Source: Candidatus Bathyarchaeota archaeon | Lineage (GTDB): Archaea > Thermoproteota > Bathyarchaeia > Bathyarchaeales > Bathycorpusculaceae | Length of the DNA: 49,341 nucleotides | Assembly (NCBI GenBank): GCA_016927895.1 | Contig: JAFGLT010000026.1 | Location: 1 to 49,341 of the forward strand | Direction: 5' to 3' | Part shown: piece after piece, positions 9,498 through 39,807 of the stretch | Layout of the letters: each line of letters starts with the position of its first letter | Numbering within the stretch: the first letter of the stretch is position 1 | Made by a program: the position numbers and the translations under genes | The notes under the pieces: generated by a model | What the model was told of the DNA's origin: nothing | Database searches by the model: none | The model's input: only the letters and a program-made list of their open reading frames with translations

Positions 9498-9514
9498 GAA
9501 GGGCGATGTGAGCC

Positions 9515-9925: not shown

Positions 9926-10095
9926 TGAGTTACGTGAACGTTTTATCATTTTTAAAGGGCTCAAGCAGCTACTGAAGTCTGGTTGCCTGTTTCACGGGTT
10001 ACTAGCGTGTAATTTTTGTCTATAGCCCTCCTTATATAAATTATAAATAGAAACCATATGTAGTCTCGAGAGAACCGCTGGGCGGGCGTGGAACA

Positions 10096-10503: not shown

Positions 10504-10548
10504 CGCTTTTTAAGACATGATAGCAAGAATACGTAGTCTAACGTTAAA

Positions 10549-10622
10549 GCGGTCGTAGTCTAGTTTGGCTAGGACATCAGCCTGCCACGCTGACGACCCG
10601 GGTTCGAATCCCGGCGACCGCA
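10549..10622 (+). tRNA. tRNA-Gly(GCC), CCA encoded at 10623-10625
   Basis: Acceptor GCGGTCG/CGACCGC, anticodon loop CTGCCAC between TCAGC/GCTGA, T-arm CCGGGTTCGAATCCCGG. Confidence 0.95.
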
Positions 10623-11007
10623 CCATTTTTACCCAACACTGATTACTTCAGCAAAAGATGGCCAAAATGAAAACGGGAAGAAACATGTTTGACAATGTTT
10701 TTTATGGGGTCGAATAGGAAAGGTTTTATATATTGCCTGGTTGGATAATCCATCCATAAATCGGAGCGTGTAACCGGGTCCACAAAACACCAAACAAACA
10801 CCTACAGCTTAACAAAACATCCATCGTAGCAAAGCCGCAACATATGCCTAGCAAAAGTCGTTGGGGTTCAGCTTCGACCCTCTCGAGTTGGCCCCAACGG
10901 CAAAGGCTACAATCGCAGTTTACAGAGGTGTGCACGCTCGAAGATATTTTCCGCTAAACGATTGGCTGAATTTCAATACTCTAACGCACTCGCACGTCCT
11001 AATTCAT

Positions 11008-11757: not shown

Positions 11758-12627
11758 TTAATCGTCGCCTACCTTTCGGCCGGTTAATTCCACAAAGACA
11801 TCTTCTAGGTTAGAATCGCGAATGATGATAGTCTTGGCATCTGAAGGCAAGTTCTGAACATAACTTGTTGCTGCCTCTCTATCAGCAAAATACTGGTAAC
11901 GAGTTTCCTTGTTATCCACGAGAGTCTCTACAGTGACCAAGCCTAATCTTTGACGTAACTCTAAAGGCTTACCAAGATCAATCAAGCGTCCCCGATGGAT
12001 TATGCCTACACGCTGACACAATGCTTCTGCCTCTTCAATATAGTGTGTAGTGAGGAAAATTGTAGTACCATCAAGATGCAAACGACGTATTGAATCCCAC
12101 AACCGCCGCCGTGTTTGAGCATCCAATCCCACAGTGGGCTCATCAAGAAAAAGCACTTTGGGCCTATGCAACAGAGAACCGATAATCATCGCTCTTTTCT
12201 TCATACCTCCTGAAAGATCGTCAACTATTCGGTCAGCTTCTTCAGTGAGCCCAACATAATCAAGCAACTCGTCAATTCGCTTCTTGCGTTCAGCCGAACC
12301 CAGATGATGCAGACGAGCACGAAACTCCAGGTTTTCTCTTACACTCAAATCACGGTCCAAACTAACATGCTGCTGCACCACGCCAATCATTTTCTTCACT
12401 TCGTCAGGCTCCTTCACAACGTCAAAACCGTTCACCAAAGCACGACCCGAAGTCGGCTTAGTCAAAGTAGTTAACACACGAATAGTAGTAGTCTTACCCG
12501 CACCGTTAGGACCCAAAAAACCATAAATCTCGCCAGCGTGAACCTTCAAATCCAAAGCGTCAATCGCCGTGACATCCCCATATGTCTTAGTTAACTTTTC
12601 AGTTACTATAAACTCTTCCATCCACAA
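11758..12627 (-). CDS. DrrA-like ABC transporter ATPase
   Basis: GPNGAGKTTTIRVL, DLSGGMKKRAMI, LFLDEPTVGLD. Confidence 0.93.
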   Translation of the reverse strand: MWMEEFIVTEKLTKTYGDVTAIDALDLKVHAGEIYGFLGPNGAGKTTTIRVLTTLTKPTSGRALVNGFDVVKEPDEVKKMIGVVQQHVSLDRDLSVRENLEFRARLHHLGSAERKKRIDELLDYVGLTEEADRIVDDLSGGMKKRAMIIGSLLHRPKVLFLDEPTVGLDAQTRRRLWDSIRRLHLDGTTIFLTTHYIEEAEALCQRVGIIHRGRLIDLGKPLELRQRLGLVTVETLVDNKETRYQYFADREAATSYVQNLPSDAKTIIIRDSNLEDVFVELTGRKVGDD

Positions 12628-23409: not shown

Positions 23410-24402
23410 ATGAGCAAAAGCATGAAGAAAAACAGTGAATTTAAAGTTAAGGAAGCCGAAGGTGTAGAGATACTTAGCTTAGTCGATAACTCCGTGGATT
23501 TCCTCTCCGCAATCAACCAGCAGCAGGTAAAGTCTTTTAGGCAGTGGAAAAGTGAGCAACAAAGTAAAGAGTGGAGCAAAACGCGTGCGAATCTGCCTTT
23601 TGCTGAGCACGGGTTTTCATTGTTTATCAGGGTTTTCAGAGGAGACAAGTCAAGTTGTTTTTTGTTTGACACGGGTGTAAGCCAGAGAGGAATTGTGGAT
23701 AACGCGGAGCGCATGGGCATAAGCTTGAGCGAGGTGGAGTGCATTGTCCTGTCTCATGGGCACTTCGACCATTTCGGTGGACTCGAAGCCGCGGTCAAAG
23801 CGGTCGGTAAAGCAGAGTTGCCCGTAATTGTCCATGAGAACATGTTTAAAACGAGAGGGTCAACCAACCCTAAGGGAAAAGTCCGACGATATCCTGATTT
23901 CCCAAGTGAAGCGCAGTTAAGTCCAGCGCGGCTCGTCAGCACTAAGCAGCCGTCTCTAATCGCGGATGGCATGGTTTGCGTAACGGGTGAAATTCCTCGG
24001 AGAACAAGTTTTGAGACAGGCTACCTGCAGCATAAAGCGTTCGTGAGTGGCGAGTGGAAGTCTGACCCGTTAATTATGGATGAACGGGCAGTCGCAGTAA
24101 ACATCAAAGGAAAAGGCTTGGTGGTCGTGTCGGGATGTGCCCACGCAGGTATAATCAACACCGTAAATTATGCGCAGCAGATCACTGATGCGAAGAAGGT
24201 TTACGCTGTGCTGGGAGGTTTTCACCTTGCTGGAAAAACCTTTGAGAACCGGATTCAGCCGACGATTGAAGAGCTGCAAAGAATAAATCCGCAGTTGATT
24301 GTGCCTTCGCATTGCACGGGATGGAAAGCGATGTGCGCTATAGCTAAAACGTTTCCTGAGGCTTTTGTATGGAACAGTGTTGGAAACCTGTACAAAATCT
24401 AA
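23410..24402 (+). CDS. MBL-fold hydrolase (dihydropterin/RFA-P synthase-like); start set at the internal ATG after the upstream stop
   Basis: LSHGHFDHFGGLEA; GCAHAGIINTVNYAQ. Confidence 0.88.
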   Translation: MSKSMKKNSEFKVKEAEGVEILSLVDNSVDFLSAINQQQVKSFRQWKSEQQSKEWSKTRANLPFAEHGFSLFIRVFRGDKSSCFLFDTGVSQRGIVDNAERMGISLSEVECIVLSHGHFDHFGGLEAAVKAVGKAELPVIVHENMFKTRGSTNPKGKVRRYPDFPSEAQLSPARLVSTKQPSLIADGMVCVTGEIPRRTSFETGYLQHKAFVSGEWKSDPLIMDERAVAVNIKGKGLVVVSGCAHAGIINTVNYAQQITDAKKVYAVLGGFHLAGKTFENRIQPTIEELQRINPQLIVPSHCTGWKAMCAIAKTFPEAFVWNSVGNLYKI

Positions 24403-24472
24403 TCAACCAGCAGGGGCAAGCCTTTCGCCAGCTTTTTTGTGAAGGGTTAAATAATATTTTTCCAGAAGTGTA

Positions 24473-25552
24473 TTGGAGTTTGATAAGATGAGTCAGAAGG
24501 GCCCTTTGTACATTTTGCCTTGGCGGTGTACTTTCGCATGTGACAGCAACTGTGCGCATTGTGCTTCCGCTGGTAAGTCGCCTTTTCCGGATGAATTGGA
24601 CACTGCAAGCGCCATGCGACTTGTAGACCAGGTACGCGATTTTGGAGCAACCTTTTTTGGGGTAAGCGGCGGCGAACCGCTTGTGCGCAAGGACCTCTTC
24701 GAGATAATAGGGTATGCTAGAAAAACGGGCTTGAACGCCAGCATCATAACTGATGGGCACCTTATGGACGAGAAGGCCTTTGGCAACATTGTTAAGAACG
24801 AAGTTAAGGTGTCCGTGAGCATTGACGGCGCAGAAAAGATGAATGATGTGATTCGGGGGAAGGGTTCGCATGCTAAAGCGATTTCCGCCATTGAAAGGCT
24901 GTCAGGCGCGGGGCTACTGAACTGCTTGGTGTACACGTTTGCCAATGTTGATGGAGGCACGAACGTTACTGAAGAGGATTTTACGCATGTGCTTGATTTG
25001 GCGGAGAAGTACGGTGCGCGGTGGGTTATCTATCACGGTTTCATTCCTTACAGCAAGGACAAGGAAAGTTTGAAGGCGGACCCGTCGCCGCTGCAGTATG
25101 AGTGGGCTTGGAACAAGCTCTACGACTTGCGTGCGAAGTATAAGGGGAAGCCTGAAGTCAACGTTTACTGTCCGTTCTTCGCCCGGATAGCTAAGCAGCG
25201 GGGGCTACCCGACTTCGACAACTGGTTTAATCACTTCTTTTTGGGCAGGTGCTTCTTCGGCAAGTTCATGAGCATAGCAGAAAACGGAGACGCCATCCCC
25301 TGCAGCTTCAACGACATATACAGGTTCGGCAACGTAAAAGAAAAATCGATTAAAACCATCTGGGATGAACTTCAAGCTTCAGAGTTCTTCTCGAAAGTCA
25401 GAGACAAAAGCAACCTGAAAGGCAAGTGCGGAGTCTGCGAGTACAAAGAAATCTGCGGAGGATGCCGTACCGCAGCAGAATTCTACACAGGCGACGTTTT
25501 CGGCTCAGACCCAAGATGCGTTTACATACCTAAAGTCTTGCGTGAAAAATGA
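24473..25552 (+). CDS. radical SAM/SPASM-domain protein
   Basis: CDSNCAHCASAGK, FFGVSGGEPLVRKDL; C-terminal CGVCEYKEICGGCR. Confidence 0.9.
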   Translation: MEFDKMSQKGPLYILPWRCTFACDSNCAHCASAGKSPFPDELDTASAMRLVDQVRDFGATFFGVSGGEPLVRKDLFEIIGYARKTGLNASIITDGHLMDEKAFGNIVKNEVKVSVSIDGAEKMNDVIRGKGSHAKAISAIERLSGAGLLNCLVYTFANVDGGTNVTEEDFTHVLDLAEKYGARWVIYHGFIPYSKDKESLKADPSPLQYEWAWNKLYDLRAKYKGKPEVNVYCPFFARIAKQRGLPDFDNWFNHFFLGRCFFGKFMSIAENGDAIPCSFNDIYRFGNVKEKSIKTIWDELQASEFFSKVRDKSNLKGKCGVCEYKEICGGCRTAAEFYTGDVFGSDPRCVYIPKVLREK

Positions 25553-25602
25553 CTGCCAGTTGCGAACACGGGTTAGGGCAGTTTACTTGGAAAGGCGCAG
25601 GG

Positions 25603-25722
25603 TTATTTGCTGCTCCATTTGCCGCGTATGGTTCCTTTTTTGCCTTTTTTTGTGGAGCGTTGCCTAACTCGATAGTAATGGCCTTTGATATGGACTCTTT
25701 TTCTAGGCGGCTTTTTTGCCAT
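25603..25722 (-). CDS. 39-aa very basic candidate protein (below ORF-track cutoff)
   Basis: MAKKPPRKRVHIKGHYYRVRQRSTKKGKKGTIRGKWSSK read from the minus strand. Confidence 0.5.
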   Translation of the reverse strand: MAKKPPRKRVHIKGHYYRVRQRSTKKGKKGTIRGKWSSK

Positions 25723-25792
25723 TTGAATCACTTTAAATATAACTTGTTTTTGAAGAAAAACTTTTGGTATTAAAAATAGTTATTGAAAATCT

Positions 25793-26464
25793 TTGAATGG
25801 AAATTTGATAAACTCTTCTGCATTCTTAAATATCAGGTCTGCATGTTTTGTTAGAAAGGCGATTTGCAGCGTGGAACCTGTCTTTGCATTCCAGTTTTTT
25901 CAAGCGGTTGTAGCCCTCACTTTCGCCGTGCTTATCGCTGATTTCAGAAGAAAAGCAGGCATGGTTCCGTTAATCAACGAGAAATGGACCAGCGTGTTGC
26001 AGCTTGTTCTTCTAGCGCCACTGTTTGTTTACTCTTACACGCTCCTCACTTTGAACGCCCTGTCGCCATTCGACCTATCCAGTTTCGGCCTGACTTTTCT
26101 GGGCACGTTCATTGTGGTGAAAGCAAAATGGGACCTTGCAAGGCATCACACTTGGACTGGCTTCTGCTTGGACACGCCTAAGCTTGTTTCTCACGGCATA
26201 TACTCGTACATACGGCACCCGCTTTACGCCGGCGTTTACCTGTTTGTTTCAGGGTTAATGCTGACGGTTACGTTGCATGCAAGCTGGTATCTGATTGTGC
26301 CTGTAGGGCTTGCATTAGTGTATATTTTTTCGTTTCTAGCAGTTTCAGCTTCACGAGAAACTAAGAGACTTGAAAAGAAGCTGGGGCAGGAATTCACAGA
26401 GTACAAGAATCAAGTTCACTTCTGTCTGCCCTTGCGGAAATATGCGAAACAAGAGCAGTCGTAG
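25793..26464 (+). CDS. isoprenylcysteine carboxyl methyltransferase-like membrane protein (start uncertain)
   Basis: LVSHGIYSYIRHPLYAGVYLF. Confidence 0.85.
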   Translation: MNGNLINSSAFLNIRSACFVRKAICSVEPVFAFQFFQAVVALTFAVLIADFRRKAGMVPLINEKWTSVLQLVLLAPLFVYSYTLLTLNALSPFDLSSFGLTFLGTFIVVKAKWDLARHHTWTGFCLDTPKLVSHGIYSYIRHPLYAGVYLFVSGLMLTVTLHASWYLIVPVGLALVYIFSFLAVSASRETKRLEKKLGQEFTEYKNQVHFCLPLRKYAKQEQS

Positions 26465-26583
26465 ACGTCAAGTTTGCTTGTGCATTTATTAGGTTGTTTG
26501 TTACACTTTAATTGATGTTCAGTGTCTACTTGGACGCGGAATATTGCAGACTATAATCAACAATAAAAAAAGGAGTTGAAAAA

Positions 26584-26961
26584 ATGGCAGAAGAAACAGC
26601 CCCGAAACCAGAAGCCGAAAAAGCACCAGCTAAACCAGCCGCTGAAGCACCAAAGAAACCAGTCGCGAAGCCAGCGGAGAAGAACCCTGAGGTTATTTTC
26701 ATCGGAAACAAGCCGCCCATGAGCTATGTGATGGCAGTCATCACTGCGATGTCTTCAGGAAATGTCTCTGAGATTATGCTTAAAGCCAGAGGCAAAGCAA
26801 TAACCACTGCTGTGGACGTAGCTGAAATAACCACCAACCGCTTCATTAAAGACCTCAAAGTCACAGCTATAGGCATCGGAACAGAAGAGATGCCCCCCAG
26901 AGAAGGCGACAACAGGTCAAGAATGGTTTCAACAATGGAGATAAAACTCACAAAGCAATAG
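26584..26961 (+). CDS. albA: chromatin protein Alba with Ala/Pro/Lys-rich N-terminal extension
   Basis: IGNKPPMSYVMAVITAMSSGNVSEIMLKARGKAITTAVDVAEI. Confidence 0.95.
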   Translation: MAEETAPKPEAEKAPAKPAAEAPKKPVAKPAEKNPEVIFIGNKPPMSYVMAVITAMSSGNVSEIMLKARGKAITTAVDVAEITTNRFIKDLKVTAIGIGTEEMPPREGDNRSRMVSTMEIKLTKQ

Positions 26962-27077
26962 CAACGCTGAACAAAAAAATACTTCTCCCCTAATTTTTTG
27001 CACACCCAAAAAACCAAAAACAACCACTAAACCACTTTTTTGCATGTAACTTATGGAAAAGAGCGATAGCGTGCAAG

Positions 27078-27104
27078 TGATGGGTCGCTGAGATTTAAAC
27101 CCAG
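27078..27104 (-). pseudogene. tRNA 3'-end relic (T-arm + acceptor)
   Basis: Minus strand CTGGGTTTAAATCTCAGCGACCCATCA resembles T-arm/acceptor of the tRNA-Pro at 36958-37033; no complete tRNA around it. Confidence 0.45.
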
Positions 27105-27184
27105 CCCTCAGGGGACGTTTCCAGCAATGATTTTTTTTCAAGCTTTTCTCATTAGGCTTAAGTATTCAGCAAACAGATAACGAA

Positions 27185-27919: not shown

Positions 27920-27933
27920 GAAATCGTGGTGGG
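27920..27933. repeat. left 14-bp target-site duplication of the casposon
   Basis: GAAATCGTGGTGGG, identical to 36948-36961. Confidence 0.93.
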
Positions 27934-27998
27934 CACACACACACAGTTTCTAATTGTTAATTGTTAAGCGGAAACCTACGGTTTCCACACCTTCCCTT
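27934..27998 (+). repeat. left terminal inverted repeat, 65 bp
   Basis: CACACACACACAGTTTCTAATTGTTAATTGTTAAGCGGAAACCTACGGTTTCCACACCTTCCCTT. Confidence 0.96.
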
Positions 27999-28052
27999 AG
28001 ATGCAAAATTATTTTACAAGAATCATTCAATTAGTTCAACTGGTGAAATAGA

Positions 28053-28850
28053 TTGGATCTGTTTGATGCGTATTATCTAGGAACACTAATTGAGTATCTC
28101 AGAAGCATGAGTTACATTTTGCCGATTGTCAAAACTCGGAAGGTTACAGAGGAATTGACTGTTCTTGATACCTTTCGAGAAGTTGAGAAGATTTTAGAGT
28201 ATGCTGAAATCGAGGGACTAATTGAAGACAAAGTATGTTATTGGAAAAACAGGTTAGGAAGAGACTATAGGAGCAATCAGACTCTTAAAAAGAAAGATGC
28301 AGAAGAAATAAGAAATGATGCCAAGGCAATGGATGAATTACTTTGCACTGAAATTCTGAATCGCCCAGCATTAGAGTTGTGCTATAGGGGACGCTTAGAT
28401 TCAAAAGAGTTGCTCCGAACTTCTGAAGGTAAGCGCAGTGCACTTTTCAATATAAAAACTTGGAAGGAGTTGCCAAAAATTGCCAAAAGCGATTTTGCGG
28501 ATAGCGCTACGTGTCTACTTACTGGAGCGTCAACACCTGCTGCAATGGTTTGTTTGCGAGGAATGGAAGCGGTAATACGAAAATACTATCGAACAAAAAT
28601 TGGAGATCCAAAAAGGAAAGGACTTTTTGACTTAATTGATGAATTGAAAAAGCTGCCAAATGCTAACAAGAGCCTTTTAGGGTATTTAGATTATATTCGT
28701 GCTGAAAAACGAAATTTTGCACAACATCCTAATAGAATATTCACTCAAGAGGAAGCTGAGAGAGTTTTCATGCAGATCGTCAACGCTGTTCATGATTTGT
28801 ACTCAACATCAGATAATTTGAAATCTCAATCAAAATCAAAGAGTCTGTAA
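28053..28850 (+). CDS. HEPN-domain-like protein
   Basis: C-terminal CLRGMEAVIRKYYRTKIGDP...YIRAEKRNFAQHPNRIF with Rx4H (RNFAQH); alternative start; upstream frame possible. Confidence 0.65.
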   Translation: MDLFDAYYLGTLIEYLRSMSYILPIVKTRKVTEELTVLDTFREVEKILEYAEIEGLIEDKVCYWKNRLGRDYRSNQTLKKKDAEEIRNDAKAMDELLCTEILNRPALELCYRGRLDSKELLRTSEGKRSALFNIKTWKELPKIAKSDFADSATCLLTGASTPAAMVCLRGMEAVIRKYYRTKIGDPKRKGLFDLIDELKKLPNANKSLLGYLDYIRAEKRNFAQHPNRIFTQEEAERVFMQIVNAVHDLYSTSDNLKSQSKSKSL

Positions 28851-29449
28851 TCATATCTTTTGCTAAAAACTCGCTCAAACAAGAATATTAAACATAAAAA
28901 CATAGCAACGGTGATCCCTAGAACAACATTGTACACTGGGTTAGCTCTATCTAGATCAAAAGAGAATTGCATGGCAGTCATAACAAATGACGCGAAGTAT
29001 GCGCCGAGCAAAGCTGCTAAGAACAAAATAGACAGATGTCTGTATTTGGGACTTTCCTTTATTTTACCCCATGCCCTTAACGCATAAAAGACTGAGGCAA
29101 ATAGTACAATGAAGATGCTCAAGGCTAGTTTTGGTAAGTAATCCTCAACGAGAAAATTTACATAAAAGAAAACAATCGCTGCCGAGAAGGTCACACTTTG
29201 GAGTAATACATCATCTTCTCTTCTAAGCTCATCAGCTTTTGCCTTTAAAATCTGAATCTTGTAATGCTCAGCAATTTTTGCCCCGAGATGAAGAAGAATA
29301 GTACCAACACCAATAGTAATTAGGAAATACAAAGAGGTGTTTAATACAAAAAGTACTGCTTCGAGAAGAATACCGAGCACAGAAACAACTATTATAAACA
29401 AAATAGGGCTGAAAAAGAGTAACGTAAAAATCTTAAATGAGTTTTTCAT
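28826..29449 (-). CDS. multi-pass membrane protein
   Basis: six hydrophobic segments; 3' end overlaps the HEPN gene. Confidence 0.7.
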   Translation of the reverse strand: MKNSFKIFTLLFFSPILFIIVVSVLGILLEAVLFVLNTSLYFLITIGVGTILLHLGAKIAEHYKIQILKAKADELRREDDVLLQSVTFSAAIVFFYVNFLVEDYLPKLALSIFIVLFASVFYALRAWGKIKESPKYRHLSILFLAALLGAYFASFVMTAMQFSFDLDRANPVYNVVLGITVAMFLCLIFLFERVFSKRYDYRLFDFD

Positions 29450-29540
29450 CGAATTTCACTATATGTTGTCCTAATTTAAGATTTCTTCCTTTTTTCATTA
29501 AGAGTATTGCGAGCATCATCGACAAAAAAATATTGAGCGC

Positions 29541-29604
29541 GGTGGGCACACACACTTTTTTTGGAATTCTTGTTCTATCGTAGATAGGGAAGGTGTGGAA
29601 ACCG
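29541..29604. repeat. internal TIR/junction remnant
   Basis: GGTGGGCACACACAC (as left junction) followed by ATTCTTGTTCTATCGTAGATAGGGAAGGTGTGGAAACCG (as inner right TIR). Confidence 0.7.
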
Positions 29605-29621
29605 ATTTTTGTTTCTTAATA

Positions 29622-30935
29622 TTACTTTTTGAGCATCTTATTCTTCTTTAGATCACTAATTTCCGAGATTTGCCAAGAAGTGTCTTTAACAAGACATTCA
29701 CGATCTTTAGGTACTTTCGCGTATTTGATATCTATCTTATTCCTTTTTGCCATAGTGACTGCCTCCTTTTCGACCGAATCTGAATTTGTAACAAACCACG
29801 CATGAAGGGTCACCCTTTTTCCTTCTGCCATACCCTTTTCCTTTTCATGATCACGCACTGCACGTACAAGCTTGCAGAATTTCTCGATTTCAGTAATGTC
29901 TATGGGTTGATTGTTAAACCTGAGTTTGCACTCGCAAATCGTGATTGTAACTACTGATTCCCCTTTGAAAGCATATACATCGATGTCTCGACCTAAGTAA
30001 GGAGGTTTGTAGTTGCAGTGGGAATATGTATACTGAAATTCGCGTCTTAGATAGGACTCCACTTCTCTCTCAAACTTGTATGATGCAAGATTATCCAGAT
30101 AGCTATCAGTCTTTTCTCGAAATTGTTGAAATGCATGCATCATTTCATCTGCAATGCCTGCTTGCTTGAGTAAACTTGAGAATGTATTCAGATGCTCTTT
30201 TAGAGAAATAGTGGAAGTCAATCCCTCTTTATAGGCAAACCAGCTAGGGTCTTCTTGAAATGCTTTTATCGCAGCGTCAAGCGCAAGTTCGACCTGTTCC
30301 AAAGCCCCTGTGAAATCCTTTTCTTTCAAAGAGATCATCAATTTGCAGATGTGAATTTCTCTTTCCGAAGATTTGGTCAATGCTTTACTCTTGACCGATC
30401 GTGCATAGTCCCCTCCAATAGCTTCTAACTTCATCCAATTTTTCTTTTCCTGCATAAAGTGGCTCAGAGCTTGAGTCCAATCATCCCGCATCTTTGCATC
30501 TTTGCCATTACAATTGGCAACCAAGGCTAATAGTTGAGTTTGGTGAGCAAGAGAGTCTTGGATAAAATTCACATAGCTATCCAGGCTTATCGGTATTTGA
30601 GAGTCAGCTAATGCATATTGCTTTGCAGCTCTCTGGAAAAATTTTGCTGCTCGGGCAGGATGTTCTGAGTAATAAAAAAAATTGCCAAGTGACTTGCAAG
30701 AGTTTCCAATATTGATGTGAAAATTCGCCAAATTGATTGACTGTTGAAGCGGATCATTCGTGTCTTGTCTTGCTAATTCGTAATATCTTGCACTTTTCCT
30801 TGCGATCTTCGCTGCTTCCAAAAAGAGTTCTTCTTTTATTTGAAATGAATGCGCTTCGTTATCCAGCTTGAAAGCTTCCTTTTCTGCTTCGCGTGCTCGA
30901 ATTTCCCACTTGGAACTAGGTATTTCACTCACCAT
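29622..30935 (-). CDS. TPR/helical-repeat protein with C-terminal PD-(D/E)XK nuclease domain
   Basis: GRDIDVYAFKGESVVTITICECKLRFN (D...E-x-K); helical N-terminal region. Confidence 0.65.
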   Translation of the reverse strand: MVSEIPSSKWEIRAREAEKEAFKLDNEAHSFQIKEELFLEAAKIARKSARYYELARQDTNDPLQQSINLANFHINIGNSCKSLGNFFYYSEHPARAAKFFQRAAKQYALADSQIPISLDSYVNFIQDSLAHQTQLLALVANCNGKDAKMRDDWTQALSHFMQEKKNWMKLEAIGGDYARSVKSKALTKSSEREIHICKLMISLKEKDFTGALEQVELALDAAIKAFQEDPSWFAYKEGLTSTISLKEHLNTFSSLLKQAGIADEMMHAFQQFREKTDSYLDNLASYKFEREVESYLRREFQYTYSHCNYKPPYLGRDIDVYAFKGESVVTITICECKLRFNNQPIDITEIEKFCKLVRAVRDHEKEKGMAEGKRVTLHAWFVTNSDSVEKEAVTMAKRNKIDIKYAKVPKDRECLVKDTSWQISEISDLKKNKMLKK

Positions 30936-31011
30936 CGATATACTATGTTAGCTTGGATTTATGCTTTGATTTTGTGTTCAGCCAAGAGCGCCTGCGAGTT
31001 CAAACCTGAAG

Positions 31012-31884
31012 TCACAGCTCTTTGAAATCATAGTTTATCCATTTAGAGAGACCCATTATTTTGTCAATATCTTCTTGGATAACCCTATTGTCCCCTCTCA
31101 GAACAGCAAGAGCCTCAGTAATAGCATTCAACTGAATTTGATGCCTATATGGAAGAGAACCAGTAGCTTTTGAAAGGAGTTCCTCGCAAATGTGCAACTG
31201 GCGTAGCAAATGTTCAGGGCAGAATACCTCTTTAGGTCTCTTCTTGATACTCATTTTTACTTTTTCAATTGGGTCAGGTGTTTTAGCATCAATAGACTTC
31301 ATTATGCTGGCGGTTGTCGCAATTGAATGGCTGAAAGAAAACGGCAATAGCCTAGATAGAAATCCTGTACCTTTCCATGCCTTGTGAAATTCTTGATAGC
31401 TGTCATGTGTTGTTGCAGTAATCAATCCTGCCCTAACAGGCTTATTAGACTTGAATTCAAGATGGTAATCGGAGAGATCAACTACTCCTTCCTCTGTCAT
31501 GCTCCGCAAAACAGCAACCAAAGTGTTGCGTGTGTTCTTGCCATGACTCATACAGTTGGTGAAATCTGGAATAGCTAAGAACTTCTTTTCGCCATTCTTC
31601 ACTTTACCGAGAAACTCGACCAAGTACTTTGGTGTAATATCATTCACATAACTAACTTCTTTCATCTTTGCCAATGGAGAAAGTAATCTTGATTTGCCTA
31701 TTCCCGGCTTTCCCAAAAGCAATAGAGAAATCGGTTTTGGACAGGATTTCAAGCAAGCAGTCTGCAACACTAGATTTTCCATGAGCAGTATGGGATAGTC
31801 AGAGTGGGTCACTTGCCCCAAAAATGAACCCTGATATGTATGGTTACTTTTTAAGGTAAGTGGGTCAACCTGAGCAGTCTTCAC
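31012..31884 (-). CDS. AAA+-like P-loop ATPase, possible element helicase
   Basis: LLLLGKPGIGKSRLL Walker A; FLAIPDFTN Walker B-like; LITATTHDSY sensor-like. Confidence 0.75.
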   Translation of the reverse strand: MKTAQVDPLTLKSNHTYQGSFLGQVTHSDYPILLMENLVLQTACLKSCPKPISLLLLGKPGIGKSRLLSPLAKMKEVSYVNDITPKYLVEFLGKVKNGEKKFLAIPDFTNCMSHGKNTRNTLVAVLRSMTEEGVVDLSDYHLEFKSNKPVRAGLITATTHDSYQEFHKAWKGTGFLSRLLPFSFSHSIATTASIMKSIDAKTPDPIEKVKMSIKKRPKEVFCPEHLLRQLHICEELLSKATGSLPYRHQIQLNAITEALAVLRGDNRVIQEDIDKIMGLSKWINYDFKEL

Positions 31885-32261
31885 TGTAACATTTCCCCTT
31901 TTTCGTAGATTGTACGCAGTACATTTTCACGGACTTCGAACAGCTTGTTCCACTCTTTTAGACCAGATTTGACTCTTGCACGATTGAAATCAACTCGCCT
32001 AGAGTCATCGCCTAGAAGCCACTGAAGCATGTTAGCTAGTTCAGAATTAATTGCTGGTTTGATCCTTATGTAGAAATGTAACCCTTTCTTTTTGCTCTCA
32101 CACACACTAATCGAATTCACTGTTACGCTAAAGTCGCTGCATGTTTTTGTAATTACGTTAACGTAGAAGGGTATCCAGTCTTCATCTGGAAAGCAGTCTT
32201 TGTCAATCTTCAGTTCACTGACTTCTTCGCTTTCTCTTGAATTTCCGTTTCTTCTTAACAT
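31881..32261 (-). CDS. small mobile-element protein, possibly AEP-derived
   Basis: ESKKKGLHFYIRIKP...LGDDSRRVDFNRARVK; overlaps neighbours in an operon. Confidence 0.55.
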   Translation of the reverse strand: MLRRNGNSRESEEVSELKIDKDCFPDEDWIPFYVNVITKTCSDFSVTVNSISVCESKKKGLHFYIRIKPAINSELANMLQWLLGDDSRRVDFNRARVKSGLKEWNKLFEVRENVLRTIYEKGEMLQ

Positions 32262-32604
32262 AAGTCAACACTCTTGAAGGGAATCCAAACGCCTTCCACT
32301 TTTTTCCTCTTATTTCCATTCTTCGTGATTCAATTTGGATAAGGTCATCAGACTTTTCACGAATGGTTTTCTGTTCCCTTTCAAAGGAGACCCTTATTTC
32401 GCGTTTGGGAATCCACCGTTTGAATTTTCGGTAAATATTTTGTTGAAAATGACGTACACCTCGTTTAGCTAAATGCTCTCGTATTTTTCTGATGTCTCCT
32501 TCTCTAGCTACTTTGTAATGCATCTCATATTCTCTGACATGCTCAGCTTCTTTGTCATACCAAAAACTCGCTATGGTCATTCTATAGATTCTAACTTTGG
32601 TCAT
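32215..32604 (-). CDS. small basic hypothetical protein
   Basis: overlapping ORF in the same operon; Lys/Arg-rich C-terminus. Confidence 0.6.
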   Translation of the reverse strand: MTKVRIYRMTIASFWYDKEAEHVREYEMHYKVAREGDIRKIREHLAKRGVRHFQQNIYRKFKRWIPKREIRVSFEREQKTIREKSDDLIQIESRRMEIRGKKWKAFGFPSRVLTYVKKKRKFKRKRRSQ

Positions 32605-32851
32605 TGCTATTCACCTCTGCCATGCTAATTACATTCATTTTTTCACGGTTGCTGAAAACCCATGACTTTCCAGTTTTTAATCCTGCGATTTTACCTTCAA
32701 CCATCAGTTCCAACAAAAGGGCTTTCGTCGTTTCCCAGACTTTTATTCCAGCTTTTCTTCGGATCGTTTCAATTGCTAATGGGCACTCAGCTTTCAGGAC
32801 AACACTTAAAATTGATTCACGATATTTTTCATATTCAGTCACGTTATGCAC
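32591..32851 (-). CDS. small winged-HTH-like protein
   Basis: CPLAIETIRRKAGIKVWETTKALLLELMVEGKIAGLKTGKSWVFS. Confidence 0.6.
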   Translation of the reverse strand: MHNVTEYEKYRESILSVVLKAECPLAIETIRRKAGIKVWETTKALLLELMVEGKIAGLKTGKSWVFSNREKMNVISMAEVNSNDQS

Positions 32852-32885
32852 CTCGTAATTACAAAGGGGTCTTGAGGGGTACCCT

Positions 32886-33833
32886 ATGGCAACAAAAAAA
32901 GCACAATGCTGGTTTGATCATGATTCAAGCTACGAGTTATTAACCTATAACCTGCAAATGAATCAAAAAATTCGTATTAGAAGAACAAAAAAAGGAAATC
33001 TAGTATCTCCTCAAGGGTTCACATTCGAAATTGAAGAGATCGGTTTTGAAGGTGTGACTTTTCAATTAACTCGTAAAAACAAACTTGGCATCTATTATCC
33101 CATTTCAATGAATCTTGATGAAATTGTGTTGCGCTTGAACCCTGTATTAGCTGGAGCAGCGGGTATACCCGTGAAACTGACAACCACGTATGGTAGCCCT
33201 ACTAAGAAAATCCAGTCTGTCACTGAAGAAGCAGAAAAGTCTGTTATTTTGGAATGTATCAACAAGATCCAAAAGACTACAAATGAGACGGTCTTGTATT
33301 CAAGATTAATACCCGTTCGAAAATTGGCTATTAACAAGAGAATAGTCCATCAACCAGAAGTTTTGCAATGTTTAGACTCATGTCTGGAAAACCCCTTGGT
33401 CACCGAGAACATAGAGACTTTTCGATTAGTAATAGAAATTCTAAGATACATAATCTATTTTGAAGAAAAACAAAAAAGCCCCAATTTAGAAGCAATCAGG
33501 AAGATAAAGAATGATATTGCCCTGAAATTGATTTCAATACTAGAAAAACAAACAGCTAACCACTATCTTCTATATTCACTTCCATTTCTTGGTCTTTCTG
33601 GAAGAAAAGAGGCAGCAGATTTAATACTAGAGAAAATTAAAAGCAATCCTTCAAAATCTCTTGAAGCAGTTGTGGATTCATTCCTTTACGAATATGCAAA
33701 CGCACTTATCCATTTGTATCCAAAGCATAGAAGTCTAATAGATAATTTTCTCGACAAACTAATTGAATCGGGTGGTGAAGCCGCTGCTGCTGGCTTGGCT
33801 CTTCGCAAAAGGATAGTGAATGGAATAGACTGA
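32886..33833 (+). CDS. hypothetical protein with C-terminal helical repeats
   Basis: 315-aa ORF, divergent from the HTH operon. Confidence 0.65.
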   Translation: MATKKAQCWFDHDSSYELLTYNLQMNQKIRIRRTKKGNLVSPQGFTFEIEEIGFEGVTFQLTRKNKLGIYYPISMNLDEIVLRLNPVLAGAAGIPVKLTTTYGSPTKKIQSVTEEAEKSVILECINKIQKTTNETVLYSRLIPVRKLAINKRIVHQPEVLQCLDSCLENPLVTENIETFRLVIEILRYIIYFEEKQKSPNLEAIRKIKNDIALKLISILEKQTANHYLLYSLPFLGLSGRKEAADLILEKIKSNPSKSLEAVVDSFLYEYANALIHLYPKHRSLIDNFLDKLIESGGEAAAAGLALRKRIVNGID

Positions 33834-33884
33834 TGCTTCCGTTGATATTTTTAATCTAAAAAGTCGAATGAAGCCTGAATATAA

Positions 33885-35111
33885 TTAGACTGGCAACAGT
33901 TTCTGAGCTACCTTACGATATGTTTTGAAGGATTTGTTGCTTCTCGCATTTTTACGTAAGTAATGCAAAGTGCTCTTGCCAATTCCCAATTCCCTAGCTT
34001 CTTTCTCGGTTAATTCCATAATCCTTTTCCTTAGACCCAGCGTGTCATTGCGTTCTAATTTGAGGGGTGATTCTGCGAAATCAATTTTCTTTGTTTTTCC
34101 CGAAAGATAACGAGATAGTTCTTGAGTTTTTCGAAGTATAATTGTATCCCACTTGCAAACTCCGCCTTTGTATTTGGCACCGCTATTGAACTTTTCTTGA
34201 AATAGTTTTAGAAAGCGTCTCTTTGCTTCAACTTCTATGCGGTATCTGTAATCATTGCCAAAGAAGTAGAAGTCTTTAAGGTCAAGTACTCCGGATTCAA
34301 ATGCTTCCAATGTGGTTATGTCAGCTATCCATCTGAAAGGCTCTTGCAAGTCGTAGACCAGTGATTGCTTTGTTTGATAGTCGCTGTACTTGTGCAAGAA
34401 GCCTATTGAGGGTTCTAGTCCTACGGTGTTTATGGCTTTTCTGCAGTATCCTTCAAGCACTCCGTAGGCGTAATTTAGTGTTAGATTGATCGGATCTACT
34501 GCGTTGTTGTTGTGGCTTCCGGTGGTTCTGCCGTCAAAGGTGAAGCATTCGGGTATTGTTGATTTTATGGCTTGCCAGTATCTTAGAGCTACTCTTCCTT
34601 CTGCTGTTCGAATTTGGCTTACTGTTTTTGCTTTGAAGAGGGATAGGGTTTCTGCTTGTGCCCTTTTTTGGTGTTCTGTTATGTCGTATCGTTCTGCAAG
34701 CCAGTCAAGAACTTGCAGACTTCTTATTATTTTAGCTTGGATGAGAGCTTTAGCTACAATGAAACGCGTAGTTCTATCGAAAGCTAATTTGATTTGAGAT
34801 AGTTTGACATCTACTTTGACCGGTGTTGGAGGGAGTATATTCGATAAAACTGTACCGTCGAAGTCCATGACAAAGACTGGAATGTTATTTTTGGAAAGCC
34901 AGTGAAACGCTTGCAATGAGATGTATCCACTGTGACCATCGATTATTATGGAGTCATAAGGAATTTTTCGTGGCGAAAATTCGTGGGTTTCTTGTTTACT
35001 TGTGTGTTTATTTCGCCCATTAGTTATGGTGAGTAATGAAAGTCTTTTCAGGTTCTTTGTATTAATTTTAATCCCGTATCCATCTAAGTATAGTATGTTC
35101 AAACCTCTCAC
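33885..35111 (-). CDS. cas1: Cas1 endonuclease/integrase (casposase) with C-terminal HTH-like extension
   Basis: AEGRVALRYWQ, GRTTGSHNNNAVDPINLTLNYAYGVLEGYCRKAINTVGLEPSIGFLHK, SLVYDLQEPFR; C-terminal LTEKEARELGIGKSTLHYLRKNAR. Confidence 0.96.
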   Translation of the reverse strand: MRGLNILYLDGYGIKINTKNLKRLSLLTITNGRNKHTSKQETHEFSPRKIPYDSIIIDGHSGYISLQAFHWLSKNNIPVFVMDFDGTVLSNILPPTPVKVDVKLSQIKLAFDRTTRFIVAKALIQAKIIRSLQVLDWLAERYDITEHQKRAQAETLSLFKAKTVSQIRTAEGRVALRYWQAIKSTIPECFTFDGRTTGSHNNNAVDPINLTLNYAYGVLEGYCRKAINTVGLEPSIGFLHKYSDYQTKQSLVYDLQEPFRWIADITTLEAFESGVLDLKDFYFFGNDYRYRIEVEAKRRFLKLFQEKFNSGAKYKGGVCKWDTIILRKTQELSRYLSGKTKKIDFAESPLKLERNDTLGLRKRIMELTEKEARELGIGKSTLHYLRKNARSNKSFKTYRKVAQKLLPV

Positions 35112-35123
35112 CCCATGTATAGC

Positions 35124-35142
35124 AAGATATACAAGATATCAT
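35124..35142. promoter_or_regulatory. operator repeat 1 in cas1/RHH divergent promoter
   Basis: AAGATATACAAGATATCAT; 17/19 match to repeat 2. Confidence 0.65.
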
Positions 35143-35158
35143 GATAACTAAATATATA

Positions 35159-35177
35159 AAGATATACTTGATATCAT
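35159..35177. promoter_or_regulatory. operator repeat 2 in cas1/RHH divergent promoter
   Basis: AAGATATACTTGATATCAT, 35 nt downstream of repeat 1. Confidence 0.65.
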
Positions 35178-35193
35178 TAACGAGGTAATTACA

Positions 35194-35337
35194 ATGCCAA
35201 AAAAGAACATTTTTGTAAGAGGAATAGATGAGAAGATTTTTTTGGAATTCAAATCGAAATCAGTTGTTAAGAAAAAAACATTAGGCGAAGCCTTCAATGA
35301 TGCCATGATATTGTGGCTAAAAACAAATTCTAAATAA
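35194..35337 (+). CDS. 47-aa ribbon-helix-helix-like regulator (below ORF-track cutoff)
   Basis: MPKKNIFVRGIDEKIFLEFKSKSVVKKKTLGEAFNDAMILWLKTNSK. Confidence 0.75.
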   Translation: MPKKNIFVRGIDEKIFLEFKSKSVVKKKTLGEAFNDAMILWLKTNSK

Positions 35338-35358
35338 CATTTTACAAGAAATAATAGT

Positions 35359-36513
35359 TTGGAGGAAGAAGAAATAAAACTTGCTACCAAAGATTTGAAG
35401 TTTGAAGGTTTAAACAGGGGTGAAGTAGTAGACTTTTCAGATGTAGAAAATATTGAGCAGCTAAAAAATGTGATAATCTTAAATTATGTTTTGCTTTGCA
35501 GAAAATGCGCGTCTTCAAAGTTTTGCAAATTTCACGATTCATCTGAGCCTCCGTGTCCCATACTTGAAAAGGTAGTTAACAATTATATTGATATGAATAT
35601 CAAAGCTATTGATACGGAAAATCGATATGAACTTGCCGAGTTTATCAAATCCGTAATTCTTTTAACTAAGATTTTTTATGATTTTGAAAATTGGCGTGGA
35701 ATTTATGTTGAAAAATGGTTTAATTGGTATTTTGAAAGTGCCCATCCTGGAATTAACTCTACATATGCGCATGAATTGTTAGTCGAAATTAGTAAGTTCG
35801 TCAAAGCCTATCGAGTCGTTTCGACAAAAAGGGTAAAAAAGTTTGCGGTTTTGGTTGAAGGGGACTCTGAATATCATGCTTTACCCCAAATATTTTCTGC
35901 ATTGGGCATTACAGGAATTGAATTTGAGAGTGGTAAAAATGCTGTTACTTTCATAAACTTGAGTGGAAAAGATAGCGTGCAAAAGAAAAAAATCGAAACA
36001 GTACTAAAACGATTTCGGGAGAAAGAGACTAGTTATTTTCTAATAATAGATAATGATCCCAAAGTTGCCGAGTATATTGAAGATTTAAAAAGAGCGTGTC
36101 TAATCGAAGAGAATAATTATTTGATTTGGGAAAACAAATTCGAGGATAATTTTGGCGAAAAAGCGATTTGGTCAATTATCAAAGAAGAAGCTAAACTAAA
36201 TGCGAAGCAAATTAATCTTGCTGAATTGAAAAAAGTGAATTCAGAAAAAAACGACGTTGTCAAGTCGCTTGAATACTTACTTCAAAAGAGTGGAATTGAT
36301 TTTCATTACAACAAATACAAGGTAGCAGTAGCAAAAAGATTGGGGAAATGGGTTGCGAGAGAGATTGATCAATCAATGCGCCCAAGTCCGCATGTATACA
36401 ACGGAAACAGAACACCAACTAGCAAGAATTTTCCAGAGTTTGTAAAAATCATAAAGAGAATTACTGATGAGATAAAACGAATAAGTTCAGAATTCCATGT
36501 TGTAAGAACATAA
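35359..36513 (+). CDS. TOPRIM-domain (OLD-nuclease-like) protein (TTG start)
   Basis: KKFAVLVEGDSEYHALPQIFSALGI, YFLIIDNDPK; N-terminal Cys cluster CRKCASSKFCKFHDSSEPPC. Confidence 0.7.
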   Translation: MEEEEIKLATKDLKFEGLNRGEVVDFSDVENIEQLKNVIILNYVLLCRKCASSKFCKFHDSSEPPCPILEKVVNNYIDMNIKAIDTENRYELAEFIKSVILLTKIFYDFENWRGIYVEKWFNWYFESAHPGINSTYAHELLVEISKFVKAYRVVSTKRVKKFAVLVEGDSEYHALPQIFSALGITGIEFESGKNAVTFINLSGKDSVQKKKIETVLKRFREKETSYFLIIDNDPKVAEYIEDLKRACLIEENNYLIWENKFEDNFGEKAIWSIIKEEAKLNAKQINLAELKKVNSEKNDVVKSLEYLLQKSGIDFHYNKYKVAVAKRLGKWVAREIDQSMRPSPHVYNGNRTPTSKNFPEFVKIIKRITDEIKRISSEFHVVRT

Positions 36514-36586
36514 AATATTGATTATGAGCGTTTCTTTTTGGTTTATTCCTTATTTCGCTTTTTCATTTTTTCTTTTTTCACTTTTC

Positions 36587-36776
36587 TTTTCCACATGTTT
36601 TCTGTTATATTTCCCTATTATTTCTGAAGCACCGTTTTCATTGTTTCGGTTCTTTTTCCATCTCACACATCTTTTTTCATTGTCTTTTTACATGTTTTTT
36701 CTTCTTGTCTACTTCTGTTTTTACATGTTTTTCGTTTTTCCACATTTAATTCATGGTCTTTTTACCTTTTCCACAT
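36587..36776 (+). repeat. subterminal pyrimidine-rich repeats
   Basis: TTTTCCACAT at 36587-36596, 36736-36745, 36767-36776; two TTTTTACATGTTTTT copies near 36685 and 36718. Confidence 0.6.
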
Positions 36777-36882
36777 ATGTCCTTGTTTGTCTTGTTTCCA
36801 TTGTTCTTTTTTTGTCTTGTTTACATTATCTCTTTTCTTCTTGTTCTGTCTACTTTTGTTTCTAAGAGATTCTTGTTTATAG

Positions 36883-36947
36883 AAGGGAAGGTGTGGAAAC
36901 CGTAGGTTTCCGCTTAACAATTAACAATTAGAAACTGTGTGTGTGTG
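36883..36947 (-). repeat. right terminal inverted repeat, 65 bp
   Basis: exact reverse complement of 27934-27998. Confidence 0.96.
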
Positions 36948-36961
36948 GAAATCGTGGTGGG
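36948..36961. repeat. right 14-bp target-site duplication of the casposon
   Basis: GAAATCGTGGTGGG; includes the last 7 nt of tRNA-Pro (CCCACCA on minus strand). Confidence 0.93.
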
Positions 36962-37033
36962 GCCGCTGGGATTTGAACCCAGGTTCTCACGCGCCCCGGG
37001 CGTGAATCTTAGACCAAGCTCGACTACGACCCC
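36955..37033 (-). tRNA. tRNA-Pro(GGG) with encoded CCA
   Basis: Minus: GGGGTCG...CACGC-CCGGGGC-GCGTG...CTGGGTTCAAATCCCAG CGGCCCC A CCA. Confidence 0.93.
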
Positions 37034-37750: not shown

Positions 37751-38186
37751 AGTAACAGCACCTTTTCAGCTTGGATAAAGATAGAAACACAACCTACGCA
37801 ACTATTATAATGATTACTCTTGCATTTGCTGCTGTCATGATATCGCGGTAACCACTTTTTGGTTAACGGCTATGCCAACCGACGTCAAAACAAGCACAAG
37901 ACTGTAAGCAACGTCTTTCCTTGTCGCAATAACGACAAGTTTAATCAGCAAGGCTACTGCAACCAAAATCATAGCCCAAGTTTCACTTCCCAAGCAAAAT
38001 CCGCCCCACCGGGTGGAAAACCAACGCGGAAGCAACATTAGCAATTGAGGCTACAGTGATCCAGCCCAAGGAGACGTAGAAAGGCAAATGCACAACCTTC
38101 CGCAACAAACCAAAAACTTTGCTGACGCCTAATTTTGATTTTGAATTCATAAACAATATCCACTATTCTCAACCTAAAGCTCCATT

Positions 38187-38591
38187 ATGCACCTAAGCAA
38201 CACAAGAAAAGCTTTATCGCCAGTTATGTCCGGCGGGATTCTGATATGCATAGCAATCGCAGTTGCCTTAGCCACCGTAGCGTGGATGAACGGCTTACCC
38301 AACCCAGACATGCAAACCGAAAACCTGCAGGTCACAAGCCACCAATTAGGACCAAAACTCTCATACGTTGACATCAGCCTACACAACAACGGAACACAAA
38401 GCGCAAAAATAAACAGCATCACAGTTAACTCCCAACCGACCACAGTAGTCTACATCGCTGGGTCAAACCAAATAAACACAGGAGAAACAGCAATCCTACG
38501 AGTAGCAAACACGTTCACCCCAAACGAAACCTACCAGATAGCGCTTCAAACCGTCAAAGGCAGCAAAATCGTTTACACAGTCACAGCATAA
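38187..38591 (+). CDS. archaeal type IV pilin/archaellin-like protein
   Basis: class III signal KALSPVMSGGILICIAIAVALATVAWM then beta-rich ectodomain. Confidence 0.8.
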   Translation: MHLSNTRKALSPVMSGGILICIAIAVALATVAWMNGLPNPDMQTENLQVTSHQLGPKLSYVDISLHNNGTQSAKINSITVNSQPTTVVYIAGSNQINTGETAILRVANTFTPNETYQIALQTVKGSKIVYTVTA

Positions 38592-38742
38592 CTGACTCCT
38601 CACATCTTCAAAATGAGTAATGTTCTCCCACAAACCTTTTCACCCTTAATGAGAATAACACGCTTTGAACTGCTAGCCACTTTTGCAAGGTAATTCCTAA
38701 ATATCTCTTCTCGCCACAATACTCTGGTTTGAGGAATAAGCT

Positions 38743-39807
38743 ATGGTAGAATTAGATTTCGGTGGCGTGAAAGAAAACGTCATCACAAGAAAAGAGTTCA
38801 CAGTGGAAAAAGCACAACAAATCCTGAAAGACGAAGTCGTCGTCTCACTCGGCTACGGCATCCAAGGTGCAGCCCAATCACTCAACATGAGAGACAACGG
38901 CGTAAAAGTAATCATCGGACAAGAAAGCACAGGCATCTTCAAGAAAGAATGGGATAAAGCAGTAGCAGACAGATGGGTTCCCGGAGAAAACCTCTTCCCG
39001 CTGGAAGAAGCAGCCAAAAAAGGAACCATCAAAATGTTCCTCCTCACCGACTCTGGACAAAAAGCAGTATGGCCAAAAGTAAAAGCTACCCTGAAAAAAG
39101 GTGACGCACTCTACTTCAGCCATGGATTCAGCATAGTCTACAAGGAACAAACTGGAGTCATCCCGCCTGAAGACATAGACGTTATCTTAGTCGCACCAAA
39201 AGGCTCAGGAACCAGCGTCCGCCGCAACTTCGTCGATGGATCAGGCATAAACTGCAGCTTCGCTGTCCACCAGGACGCAACAGGCAAAGCAGAGAATCGC
39301 GCAAAAGCCATGGGCATCGCCATCGGCGGAGGATATCTCTTCCCAACCACTTTCGAGAAAGAAGTCTACAGCGACTTAACAGGAGAACGCGGCACACTCA
39401 TGGGCGCACTAGAAGGCATTCTCGAAGCGCAGTACAACACGCTGCGCTCGCGTGGTCACAGCCCAAGCGAGGCGTTTAACGAAACAGTCGAAGAACTCAC
39501 CCAGAGCCTAATCCGCCTTGTGGATGAGAACGGCATGGATTGGATGTACTGCAACTGCAGCGAAACCGCACGCATCGGCGCACTCCGCTGGAAAGAACGC
39601 TTCCGCAGCGCAACACAACCAGTATTTGACAGCCTCTACGACCTAGTCGCAGCAGGCGAAGAAACACGCATCGTACTCGAAAAAAGCAAAGCACCAGACT
39701 ACAGACAAAAACTCGCTGACGAACTCAACGAGATGGGCAACTCTGAGATGTGGCGTGCAGGAAAAACCGTCCGCTCACTGCGGCCAAAACAACCAAAAAA
39801 AGAGTAA
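38743..39807 (+). CDS. ilvC: ketol-acid reductoisomerase
   Basis: GYGIQGAAQSLNMRDNGVKVIIGQ; DIDVILVAPKGSGTSVRR; EVYSDLTGERGTLMGALEGI. Confidence 0.95.
   Translation: MVELDFGGVKENVITRKEFTVEKAQQILKDEVVVSLGYGIQGAAQSLNMRDNGVKVIIGQESTGIFKKEWDKAVADRWVPGENLFPLEEAAKKGTIKMFLLTDSGQKAVWPKVKATLKKGDALYFSHGFSIVYKEQTGVIPPEDIDVILVAPKGSGTSVRRNFVDGSGINCSFAVHQDATGKAENRAKAMGIAIGGGYLFPTTFEKEVYSDLTGERGTLMGALEGILEAQYNTLRSRGHSPSEAFNETVEELTQSLIRLVDENGMDWMYCNCSETARIGALRWKERFRSATQPVFDSLYDLVAAGEETRIVLEKSKAPDYRQKLADELNEMGNSEMWRAGKTVRSLRPKQPKKE

Follow-up and report, generated by a model that had tools for sequence, protein, structure and literature searches.

Positions 27920-36961 of the Candidatus Bathyarchaeota contig JAFGLT010000026.1 (GCA_016927895.1; the whole stretch of 49,341 nucleotides analysed here is referred to as the window) are occupied by a 9-kb element that is almost certainly a transposon driven by a casposase (Cas1), and that represents a new polymerase-less casposon variant. 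It is probably a complete casposase-moved DNA transposon without family B DNA polymerase (PolB), the replication of which would be begun by a compact module of its own. It is by PolB that casposons are defined as self-synthesising, and because none was found in the element or in its closest relatives, we regard the element as a casposase-mobilised transposon and not as a self-synthesising casposon. A previous sequence-only reading of this DNA had described a complete casposon; the casposase clade, the pattern of repeats and target, the intact appearance and an unoccupied locus in a congener agreed with that description, but the family B polymerase was missing. The lack of a polymerase gene, an internal scar at 29538-29604 and a T-rich tract at 36518-36882 are features beyond those of that reading.

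The element is bordered by terminal inverted repeats (TIRs) and target-site duplications (TSDs) as follows.

27920-27933, left TSD, GAAATCGTGGTGGG, the same 14-mer as at 36948-36961
27934-27998, plus strand, left 65-bp TIR with the tip CACACACACACA and an internal palindrome GGAAACC-TAC-GGTTTCC, 100% complementary to 36883-36947
36883-36947, minus strand, right 65-bp TIR, partner of 27934-27998
36948-36961, right TSD, GAAATCGTGGTGGG, corresponding to the final 7 nt of tRNA-Pro plus 7 bp downstream
36955-37033, minus strand, tRNA-Pro(GGG), which is the target gene and remains intact

The two TIRs were exact reverse complements of each other (65/65), with the complementarity ending abruptly at 65 bp, and the perfect TIRs, the 14-bp TSD outside both of them and the overlap of its right copy with the last 7 nt of an intact tRNA-Pro(GGG), all claimed by the sequence-only reading, were borne out, the tRNA by both ARAGORN and Rfam. 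With about 1e9 position pairs in 49 kb, the chance expectation for a perfect inverted repeat of 65 bp is 1e9 multiplied by 4^-65, and a 14-bp direct repeat placed exactly at the TIR edges contributes a further 4^-14. In addition, the element was AT-richer (GC 0.372) than its flanks (0.446 and 0.450), and a scan for TIRs with TSDs in six Cas1-free control loci gave zero calls. Recent mobility, considered probable in that reading, is plausible given that TIRs and TSD contain no mismatches; copying of the ends is another way in which identical TIRs could be maintained. The idea that the TIR motif is a common archaeal repeat was ruled out, the motif being present in the genome of the window and in one other among 257.

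The integrase is encoded as follows.

33885-35111, minus strand, Cas1 casposase, 408 aa, with a C-terminal helix-turn-helix (HTH)-type extension (Pfam Cas_Cas1, 7.5e-50)

This protein, the sole Cas1 found in the 1.69-Mb draft genome (93% complete), possesses the conserved motif residues E171, H240, D254 and E257, in accordance with the intact motifs noted previously. It aligned with the casposase of M. mazei (6OPM) over residues 5-401, including the C-terminal extension, with an E value of 1.8e-75, the best match to a CRISPR Cas1 being 2e-22; the C-terminal stretch is conserved among its relatives and appears to provide the C-terminal HTH that is a feature of family 2 casposons. Phylogeny, the check proposed in the sequence-only reading, likewise pointed to a casposase: in a tree of 50 rows, the casposases (20 rows, including the window and 6OPM) formed a 99/99 group separate from the CRISPR Cas1 proteins. 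Within this group, the window Cas1 constituted a 100/100 clade with those of JAUWDY010000017 (Bathyarchaeota, genome G069) and JAUQYT010000275 (Ca. Njordarchaeum), with mutual identities of 62-67%, and the clade was sister (99/98) to MEZD01000043, a Bathyarchaeota casposon that has an HNH gene and, where its contig ends, part of a PolB. The G069 protein, from a Bathyarchaeota metagenome-assembled genome, was the nearest named relative of the window Cas1 within its order and places the host in Bathyarchaeia. No CRISPR-like tandem array was detected in the window and the element genes include no cas gene other than cas1, consistent with the earlier statement that no array, cas2 or effector lies nearby. 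Partial casposase sequences, often comprising only the C-terminal part, were also seen in the genomes G029, G034, G035, G036 and G038; such partial casposases in Bathyarchaeia are probably casposon fossils, some of which may be contig-edge fragments.

The same locus was identified in the congener G152 (L121), in which both sides of a bare tRNA-Pro, 98% identical to that of the window over 97 nt, were colinear with window positions 23797-27114 and 37759-39801; searches of G152 for the Cas1 and for the TIR sequence found neither. Because the gene immediately beyond the element differs in G152 (an ABC transporter pair there), as does the intergenic DNA beside the tRNA, the empty site is claimed at the locus level only: the search for it suggested by the sequence-only reading yielded an unoccupied colinear locus, but the base-exact junction was not readable.

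Tyrosine integrases favour tRNA 3' ends, and in the related genome G198 an element with such an integrase lies at tRNA-Pro, so that a genomic island moved at the tRNA by another recombinase with cas1 as a passenger, or else an assembly artefact, might be considered in place of a transposon. We deem this highly improbable, since no integrase gene was found in the element (open reading frame (ORF) list, Pfam and PHROG), the att sites of tyrosine integrases do not take the form of perfect 65-bp TIRs flanked by a 14-bp TSD, and the same architecture was present in an independent relative at a different tRNA-like gene. In G198 (contig C5, L043 9697-13843), tRNA-Pro is followed by a 29-bp match (90%) to the inner TIR, which edges a 4-kb element that encodes a tyrosine recombinase and has a direct repeat of 44 bp. 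Elsewhere, an ATPase homologue was located about 2 kb from tRNA-Pro(GGG) at L147 (G118:C1, around 9383-12323), where no Cas1 was detected, and a large Prim-Pol protein near tRNA-Pro(GGG) at L123 (G115:C9). tRNA-Pro seems to be an insertion site common to several elements.

Besides cas1, the central part of the element comprises the following genes.

31012-31884, minus strand, AAA+-like P-loop ATPase of the core module, 290 aa, Walker A GKPGIGKS, weak AAA/MCM/Rad17 matches
31881-32261, minus strand, p126, a small protein of the core module resembling archaeo-eukaryotic primases (AEP-like), motifs IDKD / S-KKKGLH / GDD-RVDFNRAR
32215-32604, minus strand, p129, a small basic protein of the core module, reading frame overlapping p126
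32591-32851, minus strand, p86, a probable winged-helix protein (PHROG excisionase, E = 0.013)
32886-33833, plus strand, p315, a helical protein adjoining cas1, with a G069 homologue (28% identity)

No match to a polymerase was obtained for any of the ten main proteins of the element in Pfam, PHROG and other family searches, which also revealed neither an HNH nuclease nor the protein-primed PolB that is the hallmark of family 1, and no ORF in the element is long enough for PolB. When casposon PolBs from two Aenigmatarchaeota elements were used as tblastn queries, other casposase loci (L050, L051, L052 and L056) were matched, and nothing was found inside the window, G069 or Njordarchaeum elements. 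A PolB concealed in a small or split ORF was ruled out by the ORF list, the family searches and the PolB tblastn. The casposon at L170 has its PolB split into two neighbouring ORFs, as likewise reported for NitNCS1-C1. A DNA polymerase is described as conserved in all identified casposons in a passage of a 2023 review (PMC9939771), and the titles, abstracts and passages covered by our literature search described no PolB-less or primase-bearing casposon.

The ATPase, p126 and p129 of the window were 76%, 62% and 65% identical to their G069 counterparts and 28%, 52% and 50% identical to those on the Njordarchaeum contig, where the three genes keep the order of the window; a further comparison of p129 gave 67% and 51% in these two relatives. 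p86 is matched only in Njordarchaeum, by a protein in the same position (36% identity). The 15.6-kb G069 element (L034), delimited on its own by the TSD GTTGGATGGTGCTC and the tips CACACACACAC, has the same core and no PolB within its limits. Its target is a tRNA-like 3' end distinct from the tRNA of the window, uncalled by ARAGORN and, by eye, apparently intron-split. At L034 1193-1678, a 458-bp mini-element with degenerate tips lies between two target copies, in tandem with the 15.6-kb element and on its tRNA-distal side; the tRNA-distal position of this older-looking copy would fit, in this one case, new insertions entering at the tRNA-proximal end. The cargo of G069 (L034 2885-8173) includes PbeA/PbeC-like (phosphorothioation-type) defence genes and a Schlafen AlbA_2 protein.

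From these relatives, it is very likely that the lack of a polymerase characterises a whole lineage and does not reflect the decay of one copy, although all of the genomes are metagenome assemblies and the Njordarchaeum contig could be mis-binned. The opposing explanation is a degraded, ordinary family 2 casposon, stripped of PolB, HNH and related genes, that no longer acts autonomously and depends on mobilisation or copying in trans. It draws on the nesting of the Cas1 in the casposase clade beside a PolB-bearing element, on the frequency of casposon remnants in the class, and on the following sign of rearrangement.

29538-29604, scar made up of target-like CGCGGTGGG with the left tip CACACACAC at 29538-29555, followed at 29586-29604 by an inner TIR piece in right orientation, AGGGAAGGTGTGGAAACCG

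The scar matches the left end exactly over 15 nt and the TIR over 19 nt, with the inner TIR piece inverted, and is probably, judging from these matches, what is left of a previous insertion into this target, or else a fused tandem copy. We nevertheless consider degradation unlikely, since the three elements, from two archaeal phyla and with Cas1 identities of 62-67%, all keep the ATPase, p126 and p129 as intact ORFs, the TIRs and TSD of the window are perfect, and seven further PolB-less elements with comparable genes could be delimited in a second group described below.

What the core module does was assessed chiefly through p126. The motifs LKID(K/R)D, S...K.LH and GDD..RVDFNRAR are kept in all three elements, so that motif I (DxD), the motif II His and the motif III Asp of AEPs are all present; D20/D22, S56..H62 and D85-D86 were conserved in 6/6 aligned homologues, casposon and viral, and D91 in close relatives only. 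An AlphaFold (AF2) model of modest quality (predicted local distance difference test (pLDDT) score 69) showed a beta-alpha-beta-beta-alpha arrangement, and in a fold search of the PDB with this model, the LigD polymerase domain (PolDom) filled most of the top ten (E from 7e-3 to 4e-2, probability 0.69-0.98), with PrimPolC lower in the list. The LigD polymerase domain is a relative of the AEPs. The best viral match of p126 was ORF144 of AFV1 (8e-6), followed by a betalipothrixvirus protein, and a homologue on a virus-like Bathyarchaeia contig (L073, G145:C15) formed a sequence bridge to AFV1 ORF144 and SIFV0030 (tblastn 4e-4); searches of viral contigs with Cas1, p126 and p129 gave no relatives. 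A motif I-to-II pattern derived from the family matched 6/1467 ORFs, namely SIFV0030, four genuine Prim-Pol records and one unrelated ORF, and p126 itself fails its last position. Taken as motifs and a predicted fold, these features are suggestive of a minimal AEP. The lipothrixvirus proteins SIFV0030 (P0004) and AFV1 ORF144 (P0002), uncharacterised but conserved, also have AEP-like DxD and S..H motifs and are possibly unrecognised viral primases.

Several results weigh against this assignment. p126 had no Pfam match and was not placed in any Pfam, NCBIfam or PADLOC family, a sequence search of the PDB gave nothing significant, and its hhalign comparison with true Prim-Pols was not significant (score 17.4, the best of 40 shuffles reaching 17.6). 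Its profile reached only P 0.03-0.05 against the AEP-like proteins of the second group, and HUH Rep proteins were among its viral fold matches; p126 could instead be an RRM-fold nuclease. The AlphaFold model of the ATPase was poor (pLDDT 46), too poor for a fold search, and one ATPase homologue scored as TniB (3.7e-4), which is a transposition regulator and not a helicase. That p126 is AEP-like and acts in replication is accordingly a proposition to which we give an even chance.

The TniB match, the fold matches of p126 to lipothrixvirus and HUH-Rep-like proteins, and the fact that host polymerases are always at hand would also suit a scheme in which p126, p129 and the ATPase serve transposition or target choice (a TniB/TnsC-like ATPase with an RRM-fold DNA-binding or nuclease protein) and the host alone replicates the element. 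We rate this scheme as rather unlikely: the conserved DxD, S..H and D suit an AEP, with a single His that is not HUH, the second-group proteins match Pfam AEP-like, if below its cut-off, and the L150 element retains the AEP-like gene without a detectable ATPase.

The second group was obtained by an ATPase-profile search of Bathyarchaeia, which led to homologues adjoining a distant Cas1 subfamily of about 345-355 aa (L143-L146, L149, L150 and L153-L164). At seven of about 14 loci examined, the element could be delimited by TIRs and TSDs of its own.

L144, TSD 15 bp, tip TTCCTTCCTTCCTT
L145, TSD 14 bp, AAACCC repeat tips
L146, TSD 14 bp, tip CCTCCTCCTCCT
L150, TSD 13 bp, tip CACACACACACCCCTCC
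L153, TSD 14 bp, AAACCC tips
L154, TSD 15 bp, tip CCAACCCAACCC
L163, TSD 13 bp, tip CCCCAAACCCAAACCC

These elements are 3.3-6.2 kb long and contain no ORF of more than 357 aa, and hence no PolB. An AEP-like DxD/S..H protein was found in L144, L145, L150, L154 and L163 and a divergent one in L146, with none recognised in L153; Pfam AEP-like matches remained below the cut-off (L155 2.7e-4, L143 1.6e-3, L144 9.9e-3). The homologous ATPase was present in L144, L145 and L146; in the compact L150 element, none was detectable beside the AEP-like gene. Their Cas1 proteins (about 27% identity) formed a long-stemmed 100/100 clade that the tree placed in its CRISPR half, and joining them to the casposases was not rejected (approximately unbiased test, p = 0.08), so that the group may consist of divergent casposons or of an independent Cas1 transposon lineage. 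No tRNA target was seen for these elements. The TSDs of L145 (8974-8987) and L153 (900-913) share AAAGTTTAATA, one of them on the reverse strand; this AT-rich sequence resembles an archaeal promoter element, and a target preference for such sites is possible.

Comparison of the terminal sequences with PolB status provided the most interesting lead. In all nine delimited PolB-less elements (two of the casposase clade and seven of the second group), the tips consist of simple repeats, for example (CA)n, (AAACCC)n or (CCT)n, with a periodicity of at least 0.83, and all six casposons with a confirmed PolB (L051, L055, L169-L171 and L173) have GGGrTATAGA-like tips with a periodicity of at most 0.67. 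The association had a Fisher p of 2e-4, for elements that are not independent, in a comparison made after the first cases had been seen and with tip/TSD borders ambiguous by a few bases in some elements. As the pattern spans two distant Cas1 lineages, the ends may be shaped by the replication module, for example through slippage-tolerant priming. We tentatively envisage, as a somewhat doubtful extension, a broad class of apparently undescribed polymerase-less Cas1 transposons with telomere-like ends ((CA)n, (AAACCC)n, (CCT)n, (TTCC)n), in which a mini-primase of the element copies the ends by slippage-tolerant priming and Cas1 captures linear 3' ends, the end sequence being set by the primase and not by the integrase.

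Strand transfer by Cas1 to a staggered target is established for the casposases studied. By analogy, the Cas1 of the window element would attach the 65-bp TIRs, through their 3' ends, to a staggered target at the tRNA-Pro 3' end, and fill-in of the 14-nt stagger would produce the TSD. We infer that p126, as a mini-primase together with the AAA+ ATPase and p129, would start replication at the simple-repeat ends, with bulk synthesis left to a host polymerase. Defence-type cargo (HEPN-like, OLD-like TOPRIM and putative nuclease proteins) would benefit the host. The cargo genes and the remaining non-coding feature are as follows.

28053-28850, plus strand, HEPN-domain-like protein, 265 aa, cargo (Pfam HEPN E = 6e-4, slightly short of the cut-off; PHROG DNA-binding protein E = 1e-4)
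28826-29449, minus strand, membrane protein, 207 aa, cargo, a hydrophobic ORF with only a weak MASE8 match (E = 0.016)
29622-30935, minus strand, 437-aa protein, cargo, C-terminus PD-(D/E)XK-looking by eye (GRDIDV...ECKLRF), no family match beyond a weak TPR
35359-36513, plus strand, OLD-like TOPRIM protein, 384 aa, cargo, probably of defence function judging from its matches (Pfam OLD-like_TOPRIM 2.6e-6; PADLOC mad4/Old about 3e-4)
36518-36882, T-rich non-coding tract adjoining the right TIR, 58% T, AT skew -0.64, degenerate repeats

This tract differs in composition between the strands, and a weaker T-rich tract of the same kind was seen in G069 (L034 16950-17240), likewise bordering the tRNA-proximal TIR on its inner side; such a tract is possibly an origin or a binding tract.

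Cas1 is also the enzyme with which CRISPR systems make records of viruses, and their adaptation machinery has been proposed to derive from casposons. A Cas1 transposon lineage free of PolB, which is regarded as a universal casposon partner in a passage of the above review (PMC9939771), indicates that integrase and replication module are separable, and the window element points beyond itself to a wider set of Cas1 transposons that lack PolB and have repeat-capped ends. Such a lineage makes testable, in a smaller system (3-9 kb), which DNA the casposase captures and who makes that DNA; if the correlation of the ends holds, Cas1 integration would be tied to an unrecognised mode of replicating linear DNA ends.

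Among known systems, the element is most readily compared with the family 2 casposons (AciBoo-C1, MetMaz-C1 of M. mazei and NitNCS1-C1), with which it shares the casposase clade, the C-terminal HTH extension of Cas1, TIRs, a 14-15-bp TSD, insertion at a tRNA 3' end and tandem re-use of one site; AciBoo-C1 and NitNCS1-C1 are described as inserting at tRNA-Pro in passages of earlier reports (PMC4046053, PMC6563490, PMC10359463). In contrast, family 2 carries a PolB3-like polymerase, an HNH nuclease and two HTH proteins and has GGGrTATAGA-like tips, whereas the window element lacks PolB and HNH, possesses the ATPase-p126-p129 module and has (CA)n tips; p86 and p315 may stand in for the HTH proteins. 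The family 1 casposons of Nitrosopumilus are likewise Cas1 transposons with TIRs and TSDs and, according to a passage on them, OLD/HEPN-type cargo (PMC6563490), but are defined by a protein-primed PolB that the window element does not have. The second group agrees with it in the lack of PolB, the 13-15-bp TSD, the simple-repeat tips, an AEP-like protein (at least 5/7) and the homologous ATPase (3/7), and differs in its distant Cas1 (about 27% identity, 345-355 aa), its length of 3-6 kb and the lack of a visible tRNA target. Finally, AFV1 ORF144 and SIFV0030 of the lipothrixviruses are p126 homologues that share the DxD, S..H and GDD-R motifs, although as viral genes they are unlinked to Cas1.

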